Assembly: GCA_016223145.1 (NCBI GenBank)
Contig: JACRPN010000015.1
Location: 1-64,000, forward strand
Length of the DNA: 64,000 nt
Direction: 5' to 3'
Source of the DNA: Armatimonadota bacterium
GTDB lineage: Bacteria; Armatimonadota; Fimbriimonadia; Fimbriimonadales; Fimbriimonadaceae
Part shown: piece by piece, positions 17,059-61,746 of the stretch
Layout of the letters: every line of letters starts with the position of its first letter
Position numbering within the stretch: the first letter of the stretch is position 1
The notes under the pieces: generated by a model
The model's database searches: none
What the model saw: only the letters and a program-made list of their open reading frames with translations
What the model was told of the DNA's origin: nothing
Position numbers and translations under genes: made by a program

Positions 17059-17568
17059 ATGAAGTGTCCGTACTGCGGTTTCGACGATCAAAAGGTTCTG
17101 GACTCTCGTCCGGCCCGCGACGGCGAAGCGATTCGAAGAAGGCGTGAATGTCTGAAGTGCGCCCGAAGATTCACGACGTTCGAGGCGCCGGAAAGGCCGC
17201 GTCTTTTCGTCATCAAGCGCGACGGCACCTACGAGGATTTTCAGCGCGAGAAGGTCCTGAACAGCATGATCATCGCCTGCCGCAAACGGCCCGTCACCAT
17301 GGACCGCCTGCGCGCCGCCAGCGAGTGGATCGAGCGCGACCTCTTCTCCGAGTTCGAGGAGGAGGTCGAGACCAAGGTCATCGGCGAGCGCGTTATGGAG
17401 CACCTGCGTTTCATCGACCAGGTGGCCTACGTACGGTTCGCGAGCGTGTACCGAGAGTTTCAGTCGATTGAGGAGTTTCGGGAGCTTGTTGAAAGCGTGG
17501 GGATCGAGGTCCGAGGTCCGAGGTCCGAGGTCCGAGGAGCGGAAGCTGAGGTGCCAAACGGTGGATGA
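17059..17568 (+). CDS. nrdR: Transcriptional repressor NrdR
   Basis: ATP/dATP-sensing repressor of ribonucleotide reductase genes. The N-terminal zinc ribbon has CPYC (residues 3-6) and CLKC (31-34) with RRRRECLKCARRFTTFE between and after. The ATP-cone follows (LFVIKRDGTYEDFQREKVLNSM to FIDQVAYVRFASVYREF). The conserved part ends near residue 146. The rest ([16 protein letters not shown]) is a tail encoded by a GAGGTCC heptamer array (17506-17537), so the native C-terminus has been extended. Its target, nrdJ, lies just downstream but is separated from it by a four-helix-bundle gene. Confidence 0.95.
   Translation: MKCPYCGFDDQKVLDSRPARDGEAIRRRRECLKCARRFTTFEAPERPRLFVIKRDGTYEDFQREKVLNSMIIACRKRPVTMDRLRAASEWIERDLFSEFEEEVETKVIGERVMEHLRFIDQVAYVRFASVYREFQSIEEFRELVESVGIEVRGPRSEVRGAEAEVPNGG
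17506..17537. repeat. Left GAGGTCC heptamer array bracketing the four-helix gene
   Basis: Four exact GAGGTCC units plus GAGG lie in the 3' end of nrdR. They are the reverse complement of the array at 18035-18072, on the far side of the four-helix-bundle gene. Confidence 0.9.
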
Positions 17569-17593
17569 ACCGAGCGGCAAGAGACACACGCCG

Positions 17594-18082
17594 ATGGAGG
17601 AATTGGACTTCTTCGTTAGGCTCGAAGCCATATTGGACGAGATGTGGGATCAAGTCGTGACTTGGGACTGGTTCGCCAAACGTGTCGTGGGAGTTCAGAT
17701 GATGAGCGCGGCCGACAGCATCGCAGCAAATCTGGTGGAAGGTGACGGGCGATTCGGCGAAGCAGACGCGGTCAGGTTCTTTCGCATCGCCAGAGCGTCG
17801 CTTCAGGAAGCAGTTCGATGGATCAAGCGCGCTCACCGGCGAAAGCTTATTGAGATCTGCACCCGGGACGCATGGGTTGACCAGTTGAGCCAAACCTCGA
17901 GGGTCATCAGCAAGCTGATCAGCTACAGGCAGGAATTCACATCGGGAAACAGAGTCAGGGAGGACCGAATGCGCTATGGGGATATCGAAGTCGATCCGGA
18001 CTTCGAGCCTTCTGGATCCAATCCAAACGTCGGCCCTCAGACCTCAGACCTCGGACCTCGGACCTCGGACCTGAAATGTTGA
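17594..18082 (+). CDS. Four-helix bundle protein (S23 / Avd-like)
   Basis: A small helical protein of the family found in 23S rRNA intervening sequences and related to Avd, the nucleic-acid-binding accessory protein of diversity-generating retroelements. The pattern is [23 protein letters not shown] followed by [22 protein letters not shown], equivalent to Q-x-RRA-x-SI-x-N-x-EG-x-GR and IA-x-SL-x-E. The ATG at 17594 is chosen because the first helix ([13 protein letters not shown]) begins there; the open frame runs back into nrdR. The last residues ([12 protein letters not shown]) come from a heptamer array. Inverted arrays flank it, and it interrupts the nrdR-nrdJ pair on the same strand. 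Confidence 0.8.
18035..18072. repeat. Right CCTCRGA heptamer array bracketing the four-helix gene
   Basis: Two CCTCAGA and three CCTCGGA units plus CCT form the 3' end of the four-helix gene. The array is the reverse complement of the left array (17506-17537), giving a terminal-inverted-repeat arrangement around about 530 bp. Confidence 0.9.
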
Positions 18083-18110: not shown

Positions 18111-21100
18111 ATGAAGATCAAGCGTTATTACACGACGGCTGGCCAGAGCGCCTACGACGGCATCACTTTCGAACCGCGGAGGAGCGAGATCCGCAACCCG
18201 GACGGAAGCACCGTGTTCCTGATGGAGAACGTCATGGTGCCGGAGCATTGGTCGCAGGTGGCCACCGACATCCTGGCGCAGAAGTATTTCCGAAAGGCCG
18301 GTGTCCCCGCCGATCGTGCCGACGCTTGGAAGAAGGAACACCCGGGCGCCGCGTCCGAAGCCGAAGCAACTCTCTTGGACGTCGCCGAAACCAATCCAAA
18401 GTCCGGAGCCAATCCTCAATCCGAAATCTCCCAGAGTCCGCGCCTCACGGACCGCAATCCGAAATCCGGGACGAATCCGAAATCCGCAATCCGAAATCCG
18501 CAATCCGGCGAAGTGGACTCCCGCCAGGTATTTCACCGTCTTGCCGGATGCTGGCGCGCCTGGGGCGAGGAATTCGGCTACTTCGACTCGCCCGAAGACG
18601 CGAAGGCCTTCTATGACGAGCTGATCCACATGCTCGCCAAGCAGATTTCCGCGCCGAACAGCCCCCAGTGGTTCAACACCGGGCTCTACTTTGCCTACGG
18701 CATCGACGGCCCGGCGCAAGGACACTGGTACATCAACCCCAAAACCGGCAAGCAGACCGCCAGCACGAACGCCTATGAGCGCCCTCAACCCCATGCCTGC
18801 TTTATCCTGAGCGTCAGCGACGACCTGGTCAACCCTGGCGGCCTGATGGACCTCTGGACCCGCGAGGCGCGCATCTTCAAGTACGGCTCCGGCGTCGGCA
18901 CGAACTTCTCCAAGGTGCGCGGCGAGAATGAGTCCCTCTCCGGCGGGGGCAAATCCAGCGGCCTCATGAGCTTCCTCAAGGTCGGCGACCGCTCGGCCGG
19001 CGCCATCAAATCCGGCGGCACAACCCGCCGCGCGGCGAAGATGGTCTGCCTGGACGTCGACCACCCGGACATCGAGACCTTCGTCCGGTGGAAGGTGATC
19101 GAGGAGCAGAAGGTCGCTGCGCTTGTCGCCGGCTCCCAGATCAACCAGCGGCACCTAAACGCCGTGATGAAGGCGTGCCATCTGGGTGACTCCGATTCCC
19201 CAATCCAAAATCCAAAATCCGAGATCCAAAATCGACTCGATCCTCGTTCCAACCCCGCCCTCCGCAAATCCATCGCGGAGGCCAAGCTCGCCGGTGTGCC
19301 GCTGAACTACATTCAGCGCGCCATCCAACTCGCCGAGCAAGGCTTCACGAGCATCGAATTCCCCACCTACGATACCGGCTACGAATCGGAGGCCTACGTC
19401 ACCGTCAGCGGCCAGAACTCCAACAACTCCGTTAGGATTCCTAACGCGTTTTTTGAGGCTGTCGAGGGTGATAGCGACTGGAAGCTGATCCGCCGGACAG
19501 ACGGCAAAGTGTCCAATACCCTGAAGGCCCGAGAGCTTTGGGACGACATCTGCTATTCCGCCTGGAACTGCGCCGACCCCGGCATCCAATACGACACCAC
19601 CATCAACGAGTGGCATACCTGTCCCGCCGACGGCCGCATCAACGCCAGCAACCCCTGCAGCGAATACATGTTCCTCGACGACACCGCCTGCAACCTGGCA
19701 TCGTTGAACCTGATCACGTTCTACAACGCTGAGACCGGCGCCTTCGATATCGAGGGCTATAGGCACGCCATCAAGCTTTGGACGGTGGTGCTGGAAATCA
19801 GCGTGCTCATGGCGCAGTTCCCCAGTAAGGAGATCGCGCAGCTCAGCTACGACTTTCGAACGCTGGGCCTCGGCTACGCAAACCTAGGCGCCCTACTCAT
19901 GCAGCTAGGAATCCCGTACGATAGCGCTCAGGGCCGCGCAATCACCGGCGCGCTGACCGCCATCCTCGGCGGCGAGAGCTATGCCGCGAGCGCCGAAATG
20001 GCAAGGGAGATCGGAACATTCCCTAGGTTTGCTAGCAATAGAGACAGCATGCTGCGGGTCATTCGCAACCACCGCCAGGCGGCCTACAATGCCACGAAGG
20101 ACCAGTACGAGGGGCTCAGCATCACGCCAGTCGGCATCGATCCGGACGAGTGCCCCACGGACCTTCTGAAAGCGGCCCGCGAAGCCTGGGACCGCGCCTT
20201 GCAGCTTGGCGAGGCGCATGGCTACCGAAATGCGCAGGTCACCGTGCTCGCCCCGACAGGCACCATCGGCCTGATCATGGACTGCGACACCACGGGCATC
20301 GAGCCCGATTTCGCGCTGGTCAAGTTCAAGAAGCTTGCCGGCGGCGGCTATTTCAAGATCGTCAACCAGTCGGTGCCGATCGCGCTCAGGCGCCTGGGCT
20401 ACACGCAGGAGCAGATCGAGGACGTGGTGGCCTACTGCGTCGGGCGGGCGACGCTGGCCGGAGCGCCGCACATCAACCACGAGACTCTGAAGGCCAAGGG
20501 CTTCACTAAAGAAGCGATCGACAAGGTGGAGAAGACGCTCGCCAACGCCTTCGAGATCCAATTCGCGTTCAACAAGTACACGCTCGGCGAGGACTTCTAT
20601 AAGGACTATCTCGGCATCCCTGAAGAGCTTCTCAACGACTGGAGCTTCAGTCTGCTAGAACACCTAGGCTTTAGCAAGCAGCAGATCGAGGAAGCGAACG
20701 AATTCGTCTGCGGCACCATGACCATCGAGGGCGCGCCGCATCTGAAGCTCGAGCATTACCCCGTGTTCGATTGCGCCAACAAGTGCGGCAAGAAGGGCCA
20801 GCGCTACATCACCGCCGATGGCCACATCCGCGGCATGGCCGCGGCGCAGCCGTTCCTGTCCGGTGCCATAAGCAAAACCATCAACCTTCCCTCGCATGCC
20901 ACGATCGAGGAGGTCGGCGCGGCTTACTGGCTCTCCTGGCAGCTTGGGCTGAAGGCCAACGCGCTTTATCGCGACGGCAGCAAGCTCAGCCAGCCGCTCA
21001 ACGCCGGCACCGACGATGCCGCCGCTGCGATTCTGGAGGCGAGCCTGGAGGAAGGGGACCAGGTTGTCGGGTTATCAGGTCTTCAGGACCCCGAACACAC

Positions 21101-22061
21101 AACACCTGAGCACCTGAACACCCAGGACCCGGTCTACCAAGCCGCCCAAAAGCTCGTCTACCGCTATATCGCCAAGCGGCGGGCCATGCCCGCGCGGCGC
21201 AGGGGCTACACCCAGAAGGCGCGCGTCGGAGGCCACAAGGTCTACCTGCGCACCGGCGAATTCCAGGATGGCTCGCTTGGCGAGATCTTTATCGATATGC
21301 ACCGCGAGGGCGCCGCGTTCCGCTCCCTGATGAACTGCTTCGCCATCGCGATCTCGCTGGGCCTGCAATACGGCGTGCCGCTCGAGGAGTTCGTCGAGGC
21401 GTTCGTGTTCACGCGCTTCGAGCCGAACGGCATGGTCCAGCTCCACGACAACATCAAGATGTCGACCTCGGTCATCGACTACATCTTCCGCGAGCTGGCG
21501 CTTTCGTACCTCGGCCGCACCGACCTGGTGCAGGTGAAACCCGAGGACATCCGGCACGATACGCTTGGCCGCCCTGAGCAGCTTCCGGACTATGAGGAAG
21601 AAGAGGATGCGGGCGAGATCGCCACGCCGGTCATCCCGGGCCTGGCCTGGGAGGATCACGACAGCAACGGCTATGGCAAGACCCGGGAACAGGTCGTCGC
21701 CGGCCCGAACACGCCTCCGGGAGCGGAGACGGTCTTGGGTCCGAGGCCCGAGGTCCGAGGCCCGGAGGGAGCAGGTCAGAGGTCTGAGGTCCGAGGCCCG
21801 GGGTCCGGAGAGGTCGCAGGTCGCGGGCCGCAAGCCGCAGGCATGGCGGTTGCGGCTCCGGATTCGTCAATCGTCAATCGTCCATCGTCCATTACCTCGG
21901 ACCTCAGACCTCAGACCTCGGACCTCTCAGAGAAGATCCGCGAAGCCCGCTTGAAGGGCTACGAGGGCGACCCCTGCACCGAGTGCGGCAGCTTCACCCT
22001 GGTAAGGAACGGCTTCTGCCTCAAGTGCAACACGTGCGGGGCAACGAGCGGGTGTAGTTAG
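18111..22061 (+). CDS. nrdJ: Vitamin B12-dependent ribonucleotide reductase (class II)
   Basis: Adenosylcobalamin-dependent enzyme that makes deoxyribonucleotides. GGAGG lies 6 bp before the ATG at 18111. Core motifs are [61 protein letters not shown] around the active-site loop, [22 protein letters not shown], and a C-terminal zinc-ribbon-like tail (CTECG...[13 protein letters not shown]). The 1316 residues include four low-complexity inserts at about residues 95-136, 361-378, 982-1007 and 1209-1275. All four are encoded by short-word repeat DNA and fall between conserved blocks. Expected to be repressed by the nearby NrdR. Confidence 0.95.
18395..18515. repeat. In-frame repeat insertion 1 in nrdJ
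   Basis: Heptamer words of the ATCCGAA/ATCCGCA type are broken in the middle by a unique stretch. They are translated as NPKSGANP...[11 protein letters not shown]: 21 bp makes one 7-residue repeat in every frame. Confidence 0.85.
19192..19240. repeat. In-frame repeat insertion 2 in nrdJ
   Basis: CAAAATC, CAAAATC, CGAGATC and CAAAATC units in 7-bp phase encode [11 protein letters not shown]. The peptide resembles insertion 1 (NPKS-x-I-x-N), so the same word class was inserted twice in one gene. Confidence 0.8.
21054..21130. repeat. In-frame repeat insertion 3 in nrdJ
   Basis: The first 35 bp match the transketolase insert (plus-strand 916-950, opposite orientation) at 29 of 35 positions and are read in the same frame, giving [11 protein letters not shown]. 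The rest is CACCTGA/ACACCTG words. Confidence 0.75.
21735..21940. repeat. In-frame repeat insertion 4 in nrdJ, with inverted heptamer arms
   Basis: The left arm has GAGGTCC/GAGGCCC words (about 21737-21800). The middle has a GTCAATC array (about 21868-21892). The right arm has CCTCGGA/CCTCAGA words (about 21896-21930). The arms are the same words, in the same inverted arrangement, as those around the four-helix gene about 3.7 kb upstream, but with no gene between them. Confidence 0.85.
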
Positions 22062-46964: not shown

Positions 46965-47516
46965 AGGACACGCTCCACGAACCCTAAGGACGAATTATGG
47001 GATCGATATTTCTCCGTCCTCGGGACTCTGTAACCTAATTTACTGCAAGTATCGGCATCGTGTTCGGAGATCGGGACCTTTGGGGGACCTTAGGCCCTGT
47101 TCAGGTCTCTGTGAACTCGCTTCTTCGACCCGGAATCCGGAGGCACACGGGGATTGAGGGTGGGCTTGGGTAGAGAGCGGCCCCGTGGCGGAAAGCTCCC
47201 TTCGCCGGATGTCGCAGCAAGGGAGAAGTCTGTGAAGGATGGGTTGTGGGTGCTGTGGGAAGAAAGGAGGGCGGGGCCAATAGAAGGCGGGGTTTATCCC
47301 GTCCTCCATTCAGTTCGCCCCGCCATCCCTTCATCTCTTCACCCCCTCATCCCTCCATCCCATCATCCCTTTCCCCCATCACCCCTCCCGCTGATCCCAT
47401 GGTCCCATTTCCAGACCATCCGCGGAACGGATTTGGTACAATAGGCGTTAGTTCATGTACATGAGTCTATAAGACTCAAGATATTTTAGTATAGAAGACT
47501 AAGAAGCAGGTTCAAA
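46965..47516. other. Upstream region of dnaK
   Basis: No gene. About 47325-47400 is a CATCCC/CCATC-type pyrimidine-rich word stretch. Positions 47454-47478 hold two overlapping palindromes that may be an operator. No CIRCE element was seen. Confidence 0.55.
47454..47478. promoter_or_regulatory. Two palindromes before dnaK
   Basis: CATGTACATG (47454-47463) and TGAGTC-TATAA-GACTCA (47462-47478) overlap by 2 bp, 39-63 bp before the dnaK start. They may be a binding site for a heat-shock regulator other than HrcA, or a leader structure. A TATAAG inside could be the -10. Confidence 0.4.
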
Positions 47517-59024: not shown

Positions 59025-59100
59025 ATCAAATCCTTCACCCGCTCACCGACTCACACACTCACCCTCTCACCCTCTCACCCACTCTCCGACTCATCTTCTC
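59025..59100. repeat. 8-bp word array over the rdgB stop
   Basis: CTCACCGA, CTCACACA, CTCACCCT, CTCACCCT, CTCACCCA and CTCTCCGA units in 8-bp phase. The rdgB stop (59059-59061) falls inside, so the last residues of the enzyme (RRVGERVRG) come from the repeat. Confidence 0.8.
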
Positions 59101-61544: not shown

Positions 61545-61700
61545 CCTATTGGGATGAGTGGGTGATTGAGGATGAATGAGGGTGAATGAGGGGTGATGGG
61601 ATGATGGGATGATGAGATGATGGCTCCTGTCCGTGTCCGTCCGTGTCCGTCCGTGTCCGTCCGTGGTTGCTGAGGGGACGCTAGGCGATGGGACGATGGG
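61545..61700. repeat. Mixed 8-bp and 10-bp word arrays upstream of rph
   Basis: GATGGGAT-type 8-bp units (about 61590-61622) and TGTCCGTCCG 10-bp units (about 61628-61665). They fill the 220-bp gap between the GH130 gene end and the rph start. No gene was seen. Confidence 0.75.
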
Positions 61701-61746
61701 ATGAGGGGAAGCCCGGATTGCCCAGGCTCGGATCCTTTCGTCCCGG

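Follow-up and report, generated by a model that had tools for sequence, protein, structure and literature searches.

Arrays and genes at the nrdR-nrdJ junction

The window, the whole stretch of 64,000 nucleotides analysed here from an Armatimonadota genome, contains a small gene of the PF05635 (23S_rRNA_IVP) family, designated the IVP gene, that lies between nrdR and nrdJ and is bracketed by two tandem heptamer arrays (Table 1). An earlier note had described these arrays as inverted relative to each other, had placed the gene in the four-helix-bundle family and had taken both arrays to be coding, the left as the tail of nrdR and the right as the end of the bundle gene. The arms do pair, a 33-nt stretch matching at 94% and a 24-nt stretch at 100% across a spacer of 497-511 nt, and the best inverted match of the flanks is 28, compared with 8-10 in six windows of the same geometry nearby. 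The family assignment is confirmed by matches above both curated cut-offs (PF05635, 53 versus 33.8 bits; TIGR02436, 59.1 versus 24 bits), and the ORFs bear out the coding status of both arrays. The left array is located inside the nrdR ORF and also in the stretch by which the bundle ORF extends upstream, as the IVP frame is open 5′ of its ATG, with a possible GTG at 17561 immediately ahead of the nrdR stop. The right array, given by Tandem Repeats Finder as 18030-18072 (6.1 copies, 91%), supplies the codons for the C-terminal tail of the bundle protein.

Table 1. Genes and heptamer arrays of the nrdR-nrdJ region, in window positions
Feature	Position	Strand	Remarks
nrdR	17059..17568	+	ORF; TIGR00244, 169.6 bits; final codons cross the left heptamer array
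Left array, (CGAGGTC)4.7, perfect copies	17505..17537	+	G-rich on the sense strand of the IVP gene
IVP four-helix-bundle gene	17594..18082	+	PF05635, TIGR02436; ATG 17594
Right array	18035..18072	-	C-rich on the sense strand; repeats the left word in reverse complement; codes for the IVP protein tail
nrdJ, class II ribonucleotide reductase	18111..22061	+	Following operon gene; NF005736, 1956.6 bits
Gene-less heptamer array, CCGAAAT/CCGCAAT	18452..18507	+	In frame within nrdJ
Gene-less array, AATCCAA	19202..19233	+	In frame within nrdJ
Gene-less arrays	21738..21926	+	In frame close to the nrdJ end; 21738-21764 (GGTCCGAGGCCCGA) and 21894-21926 (ACCTCAG/ACCTCGG)

The nrdJ gene has several in-frame heptamer-coded insertions between 18452 and 21926 and encodes 1316 aa, versus 1222 in the family model. 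The word of its first array recurs at another IVP element of the window genome (L050), and the two arrays close to its end belong to the word family of the IVP arrays, in inverted orientation. There are also octamer and decamer arrays, several of them clustered, at 47314-47388, 59035-59100 and 61560-61709 that are unlinked to any IVP gene of the window.

In the AlphaFold model the IVP region forms four helices (pLDDT 86) arranged as a four-helix bundle, and the tail, which is partly array-encoded, is modelled at low confidence (pLDDT 55-60). The best fold match in the PDB is 2gsc, with a TM-score of 0.89 by target length. Among solved structures, 2gsc (XCC0516 of Xanthomonas campestris) and 2rld, each containing five chains, come nearest in fold, followed by Avd (4dwl). 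As 2gsc is the solved structure of a close homologue of a Xanthomonad IVP copy, binding is directly testable. The 3.87 Mb window genome has 13 PF05635 matches, and such matches are present in 21 of 41 near relatives and in 102 of the 201 genomes sampled across the phylum. Close relatives look planctomycete-like on our own reading, and many of the genomes analysed are drafts. Three matches in the window genome (L067, L068 and L069) are weak, of another subtype and without period-7 arrays; one of these adjoins groEL.

Association of inverted arrays with IVP genes

Flanks were scored as the best ungapped inverted match between the 300-bp stretches on the two sides of the profile match, at 157 usable IVP loci, up to 80 of them named, from many phyla. 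A score of at least 14 was obtained at 109 of these loci but in only 3 of 676 windows of the same geometry shifted along them, and direct repeats reached this score at 16 of the 157. Inverted flanks are present at 25 of 29 IVP loci in Xanthomonads (controls, 2/114), 25 of 31 in Nostocales (0/124), 12 of 14 in one Terriglobia genome (0/54) and 4 of 10 in Sphingobacteriaceae (0/40). A clear inverted pair is thus missing at ~15-30% of the loci in the larger sets and at 6 of 10 in Sphingobacteriaceae. Of the 338 other small ORFs examined in genomes with IVPs, 6 have inverted flanks, and at least two of the six read as Y1 transposases. The association of arrays with this family, the point on which the earlier note had staked its proposal, goes well beyond chance. 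Heptamer arrays are common elsewhere in the window genome; what is unusual is the inverted pair around an IVP gene.

At least one gene that does not encode an IVP (L282, 614-1075, in G019) does lie between several inverted arrays of TTTGGAT and CTGAT words (score 44) and, therefore, the IVP protein is not strictly required for the arrangement. DUF559 was considered as a further member and rejected, as the repeat that flanks the sole example is of another type than the heptamer arrays.

Words, period and polarity of the arms

Self-matches peak at lags of 7, 14, 21 and 28 on both sides of the IVP gene, with no such peaks in the gene itself or in the controls. The best period among the 109 arms is 7 for 73 and 14 for 9, with most of the remainder at 8-12; one arm has a period of 6 and two have no period. 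Inverted IVP arms with periods of 8 to 12 were noted, for example, at L017, L025, L043, L056 and L178, so that a period of 7 is common rather than fixed. The heptamer word varies between IVP loci, yet corresponds across both arms of each. In 62 of the 79 loci with heptamers on both sides, the words of the two arms agree at 6 or more of 7 positions, versus 4% after re-pairing. A universal word was sought and rejected, as beyond a G-rich, C-poor bias there is a weak motif only. This bias gives the arms a polarity: on the sense strand the upstream arm has 40% G and 11.5% C, with G exceeding C in 100 of 109 arms. The same polarity is shared by gene-less inverted pairs in the samples from G000 (the window genome), G019 and G014, and by the convergent inverted heptamer pairs described for Xanthomonas in passages of PMC4692102.

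Arm mismatches of the G-T and A-C types number 96:96 and 71:99, and there is no bias towards G-U. The lack of a G-U excess over A-C disfavours selection for an RNA hairpin, which as the main force is ruled out by this wobble test, and therefore favours a DNA-level unit with mutually templating arms.

Occupied and empty operon junctions

IVP cassettes are located mainly between codirectional genes. For loci with a GC content up to 50%, both neighbours are read in the IVP direction in 54 of 77 and both are opposed in 7, approximate counts based on ORFs, which places the IVP in the sense orientation at 54 of 61 codirectional junctions. The junctions recognised, named by reading the translations of the neighbours rather than by profile search, include groES-groEL, accB-accC, carA-carB, sdhA-sdhB, nuoC-nuoD, argC-argD, prfB-lysS, thiolase-acyl-CoA dehydrogenase, pdhA-pdhB, sucC-sucD, purC-purF and a BREX operon. 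In the BREX case, from a Thiodictyon MAG (L085), the IVP gene lies between apparent pglZ and brxL genes of the defence operon. A Nostoc plasmid has a cassette between nrdB and nrdA in the opposite orientation.

Adjacent nrdR and nrdJ genes were found at 28 loci, the window genome counted, with two of the 30 loci inspected lacking a readable nrdJ. At 26 of the 28, the gap is -3 to 254 bp and holds no IVP, and in two congeners of the window genome it is 19 bp without any insert. These are the empty sites that the earlier note had called for. Its alternative, that relatives keep the gene in place without arrays, does not hold, as the 26 IVP-free loci have no such gene there. One genome (G015) has a gene-less array of 44 bp within the gap. 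An IVP gene is present at this junction only in the window genome (gap 543 bp) and in G008 (488 bp), and the two proteins are 36% identical, each is nearer to other IVPs and their words differ. A single inherited copy is rejected on these grounds; sequence comparison favours, without proving, two independent insertions.

The mobile-cassette reading of the earlier note is supported by two Nostocales loci (L388 and L397) with 456 bp in common at 86% identity, a stretch that runs precisely from one arm to the other and lies in unrelated surroundings. At the L397 site, the insert in G423 is 550 bp. Its nearest relative, G452, in which the flanks are 95% and 92% identical, has in its place 61 bp that include the word of the insert but no gene; in other species, gene-less inverted arrays built from different words occupy the site. 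No target-site duplication was recognised by eye at the G423 cassette, where the array ends blur the junction. IVP phylogeny tracks the operon junction; cassettes are therefore mostly inherited and seldom move, and within a lineage most of them are long-term residents of one junction. Spread by phages or plasmids was rejected as the main route, with IVP genes in 0 of 50,697 phage and 45 of 72,556 plasmid records.

At fixed junctions, the word differs between species and both arms agree within species, so the arms evolve in concert. For accB-accC, the arm match is 24.0 within and 15.5 between genomes (p=0.0002). For groES-groEL, it is 14.7 within and 7.4 between (permutation p=0.0002) in a group of 12 that includes the mis-grouped L068, joined through its neighbouring groEL and kept in the test. 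As the IVP tree tracks the junction, the word must turn over at a fixed site with the two arms staying complementary.

Dispersed gene-less arrays

Excluding the arrays of its nrdR-nrdJ IVP element, the window genome has 37 heptamer arrays in 464 kb sampled. There are 29 in 420 kb of G019, 22 in 400 kb of G014 and 9 in 209 kb of other IVP-rich genomes, versus none in the 367 kb sampled from IVP-free relatives, which may, however, be poorer in repeats of all kinds. In two of the three IVP-bearing genomes tested, the dispersed arrays clearly carry the words of that genome's own IVP elements (24 of 37 in the window genome versus 0-8 for the words of other genomes; 13 of 22 versus 0-4 in G014); in G019 the correspondence is weak (6 of 29 versus 0-5, with values of 4 and 5 among them, for the words of other genomes). 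Inverted array pairs in these random samples have gaps of up to 124 bp, gene-sized gaps belonging to IVP loci.

Transposases and IVP genes as cargo

IVP and Y1_Tnp genes co-occur across 201 genomes (OR 3.1, p=1.6e-4), and their copy numbers are correlated within the family of the window genome (rho 0.78), a correlation that may reflect general repeat load. None of the 12 Y1 matches of the window genome is near a heptamer array. Most are flanked by inverted repeats that are not heptameric, as in RAYT/REP pairs, and a RAYT/Y1 protein was rejected as the user of the heptamers because the repeats beside the Y1 genes of the window genome are of other kinds. In one Nostocales genome (G430), an ISL3-type insertion sequence of ~1.9 kb carries a transposase and an IVP gene, with heptamer arrays immediately internal to the terminal repeats. 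The genome has at least seven almost identical copies of it (L393, L413-L417 and L419), and a target duplication is recognisable for at least one of them; IVP units can therefore be transported as cargo as well. These near-identical loci do not document direct transposition of the cassette, as they are copies of the insertion sequence bearing the IVP. In ordinary cassettes no transposase is encoded between the arms, and no enzyme of movement was identified.

A proposed cassette with mutually templating arms and its alternatives

The reading of the IVP unit as a cassette is well supported, and the recurrence of the arrangement across many phyla points to a so far undescribed type of element that moves or spreads repeats. 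On balance, we lean towards regarding the unit at 17505-18072 as a copy of such a widespread cassette, with arms that template each other and an IVP that aids its persistence or spread. Such a cassette comprises an IVP gene flanked upstream by a G-rich heptamer array and downstream by its reverse complement, placed at the junction of two operon genes and usually read in the operon sense. Its ends would be recognised by structure, that is inverted and with a period of ~7, and not by one fixed sequence. Pairing of the arms in single-stranded DNA could allow one arm to template the other, renewing the word jointly on both sides. The IVP, an Avd-like bundle with relatives that crystallise with five chains, would be made through read-through transcription and may bind the arrays or their hairpin. 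With host enzymes it might then aid the persistence and spread of cassettes and of their gene-less derivatives, as RAYT is thought to do for REPINs. We infer this role in array spreading from the trans link, the dispersed arrays with own-element words, which fits the suggestion of the earlier note that the protein may help to make or move the arrays. A broader proposal, offered tentatively as possible rather than probable, is that IVPs power a system, general among bacteria, in which short-word arrays are copied and spread with no need for a fixed recognition sequence. The protein would recognise a 7-nt-periodic, hairpin-ended structure, renew both arms together and seed the long-known heptamer repeats of Xanthomonas and of cyanobacteria.

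The protein family is identical to that of the intervening sequences (IVS) of 23S rRNA (PF05635) and the IVP gene is mostly read in the operon sense. In Coxiella, the ends of the IVS are inverted repeats that pair as a 28-bp stem around an S23p gene, and RNase III removes the unit (PMC4990558). The unit could, by extension, be an IVS of this type in an mRNA, with arms that pair in the transcript, RNase III cutting the stem and selection on the RNA keeping the pairing. This seems unlikely, as such selection predicts G-U mismatches in excess of A-C, contrary to the counts obtained, gene-less arrays of the same words are scattered through the genome and the site in the window is an nrdR-nrdJ mRNA rather than an rRNA. 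Alternatively, the arrays might be passive microsatellites: small inverted repeats would grow by slippage, quasi-palindrome repair would make them equal, and the IVP would be an unrelated passenger that happens to tolerate operon junctions. The many periods, the bracketed non-IVP gene of L282 and the existence of gene-less hairpins are consistent with this. It is nevertheless improbable given how few other small ORFs in IVP-bearing genomes are flanked, at least two of those few being Y1-like, the lack of heptamer arrays in IVP-free relatives and the confinement of gene-sized gaps to IVP loci.

The long residence of sense-oriented units at groES-groEL, accB-accC and nuoC-nuoD would be expected if the host kept them as operon spacers that tune the expression ratio of the neighbouring genes. 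Most relatives, however, have no unit at the junction (26 of the 28 readable nrdR-nrdJ loci) and the word turns over completely at an unchanged site, and we consider this distinctly unlikely. Movement by a DNA transposase, either a Y1/RAYT protein or an IS element, with the IVP as cargo, could draw on the co-occurrence with Y1_Tnp and on the insertion sequence of G430. With heptamer arrays near none of the Y1 matches of the window genome and ordinary cassettes free of transposase genes, it is very unlikely to explain the units in general. The link between arrays and IVP genes places a large protein family of unknown function in a recurring genetic context and suggests where the heptamer repeats so far reported piecemeal might originate. 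An element that keeps mirror symmetry and period but not sequence at its ends would be unusual, as it implies recognition of structure and joint renewal of the arms. As cassettes are present inside core operons (groES-groEL, nuoC-nuoD, accB-accC, sucC-sucD and pdhA-pdhB), an effect on expression is testable.

Comparison with known systems

The 23S rRNA IVS (S23p/IVP), as in Coxiella burnetii (PMC4990558), has a protein of the same family in a unit of ~0.4-0.6 kb with inverted terminal repeats. In contrast, the window unit lies between nrdR and nrdJ, outside a 23S rRNA gene, the cassettes occupy operon junctions within mRNAs and have tandem heptamers of variable word at their ends, the wobble test gives no sign of RNA selection and there are dispersed gene-less relatives. 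Avd of diversity-generating retroelements (4dwl, 8ube) has the same fold (TM-score 0.87 by target length) but ~10% identity, and neither template and variable repeats nor a reverse transcriptase were identified beside the IVP gene, the immediate neighbours of which are nrdR and nrdJ.

The REPIN/RAYT system (PMC3116915) similarly has a gene within inverted genome-specific repeats that are also scattered without the gene, partly as short hairpins, and the flanking repeat of IVP elements is likewise dispersed in G000 and G014 (24 of 37 and 13 of 22 arrays) and weakly so in G019 (6 of 29). The cassette protein is, however, an Avd-like bundle (PF05635) and not a Y1 (HUH) transposase, and the repeat is a heptamer array of changing word that does not flank the Y1 genes of the window genome.

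Heptamer repeats and IVS are described separately in the open-access literature searched, in which no paper joining them was found. TAACTGA repeats (passages of PMC4679880) and cyanobacterial STRR are further comparisons, and neither these passages nor those of PMC4692102 mention a bundle or S23 gene. The arms of Xanthomonad IVP elements, GGGAATC, GGGATTC and GGGACTC, are of the word type of the heptameric repeats of Xanthomonas and Nostoc described in the passages of PMC4692102, which also record 70 cases of close convergent inverted heptamer pairs in Xcc. The link of such heptamer repeats with the IVP is made in the present analysis.
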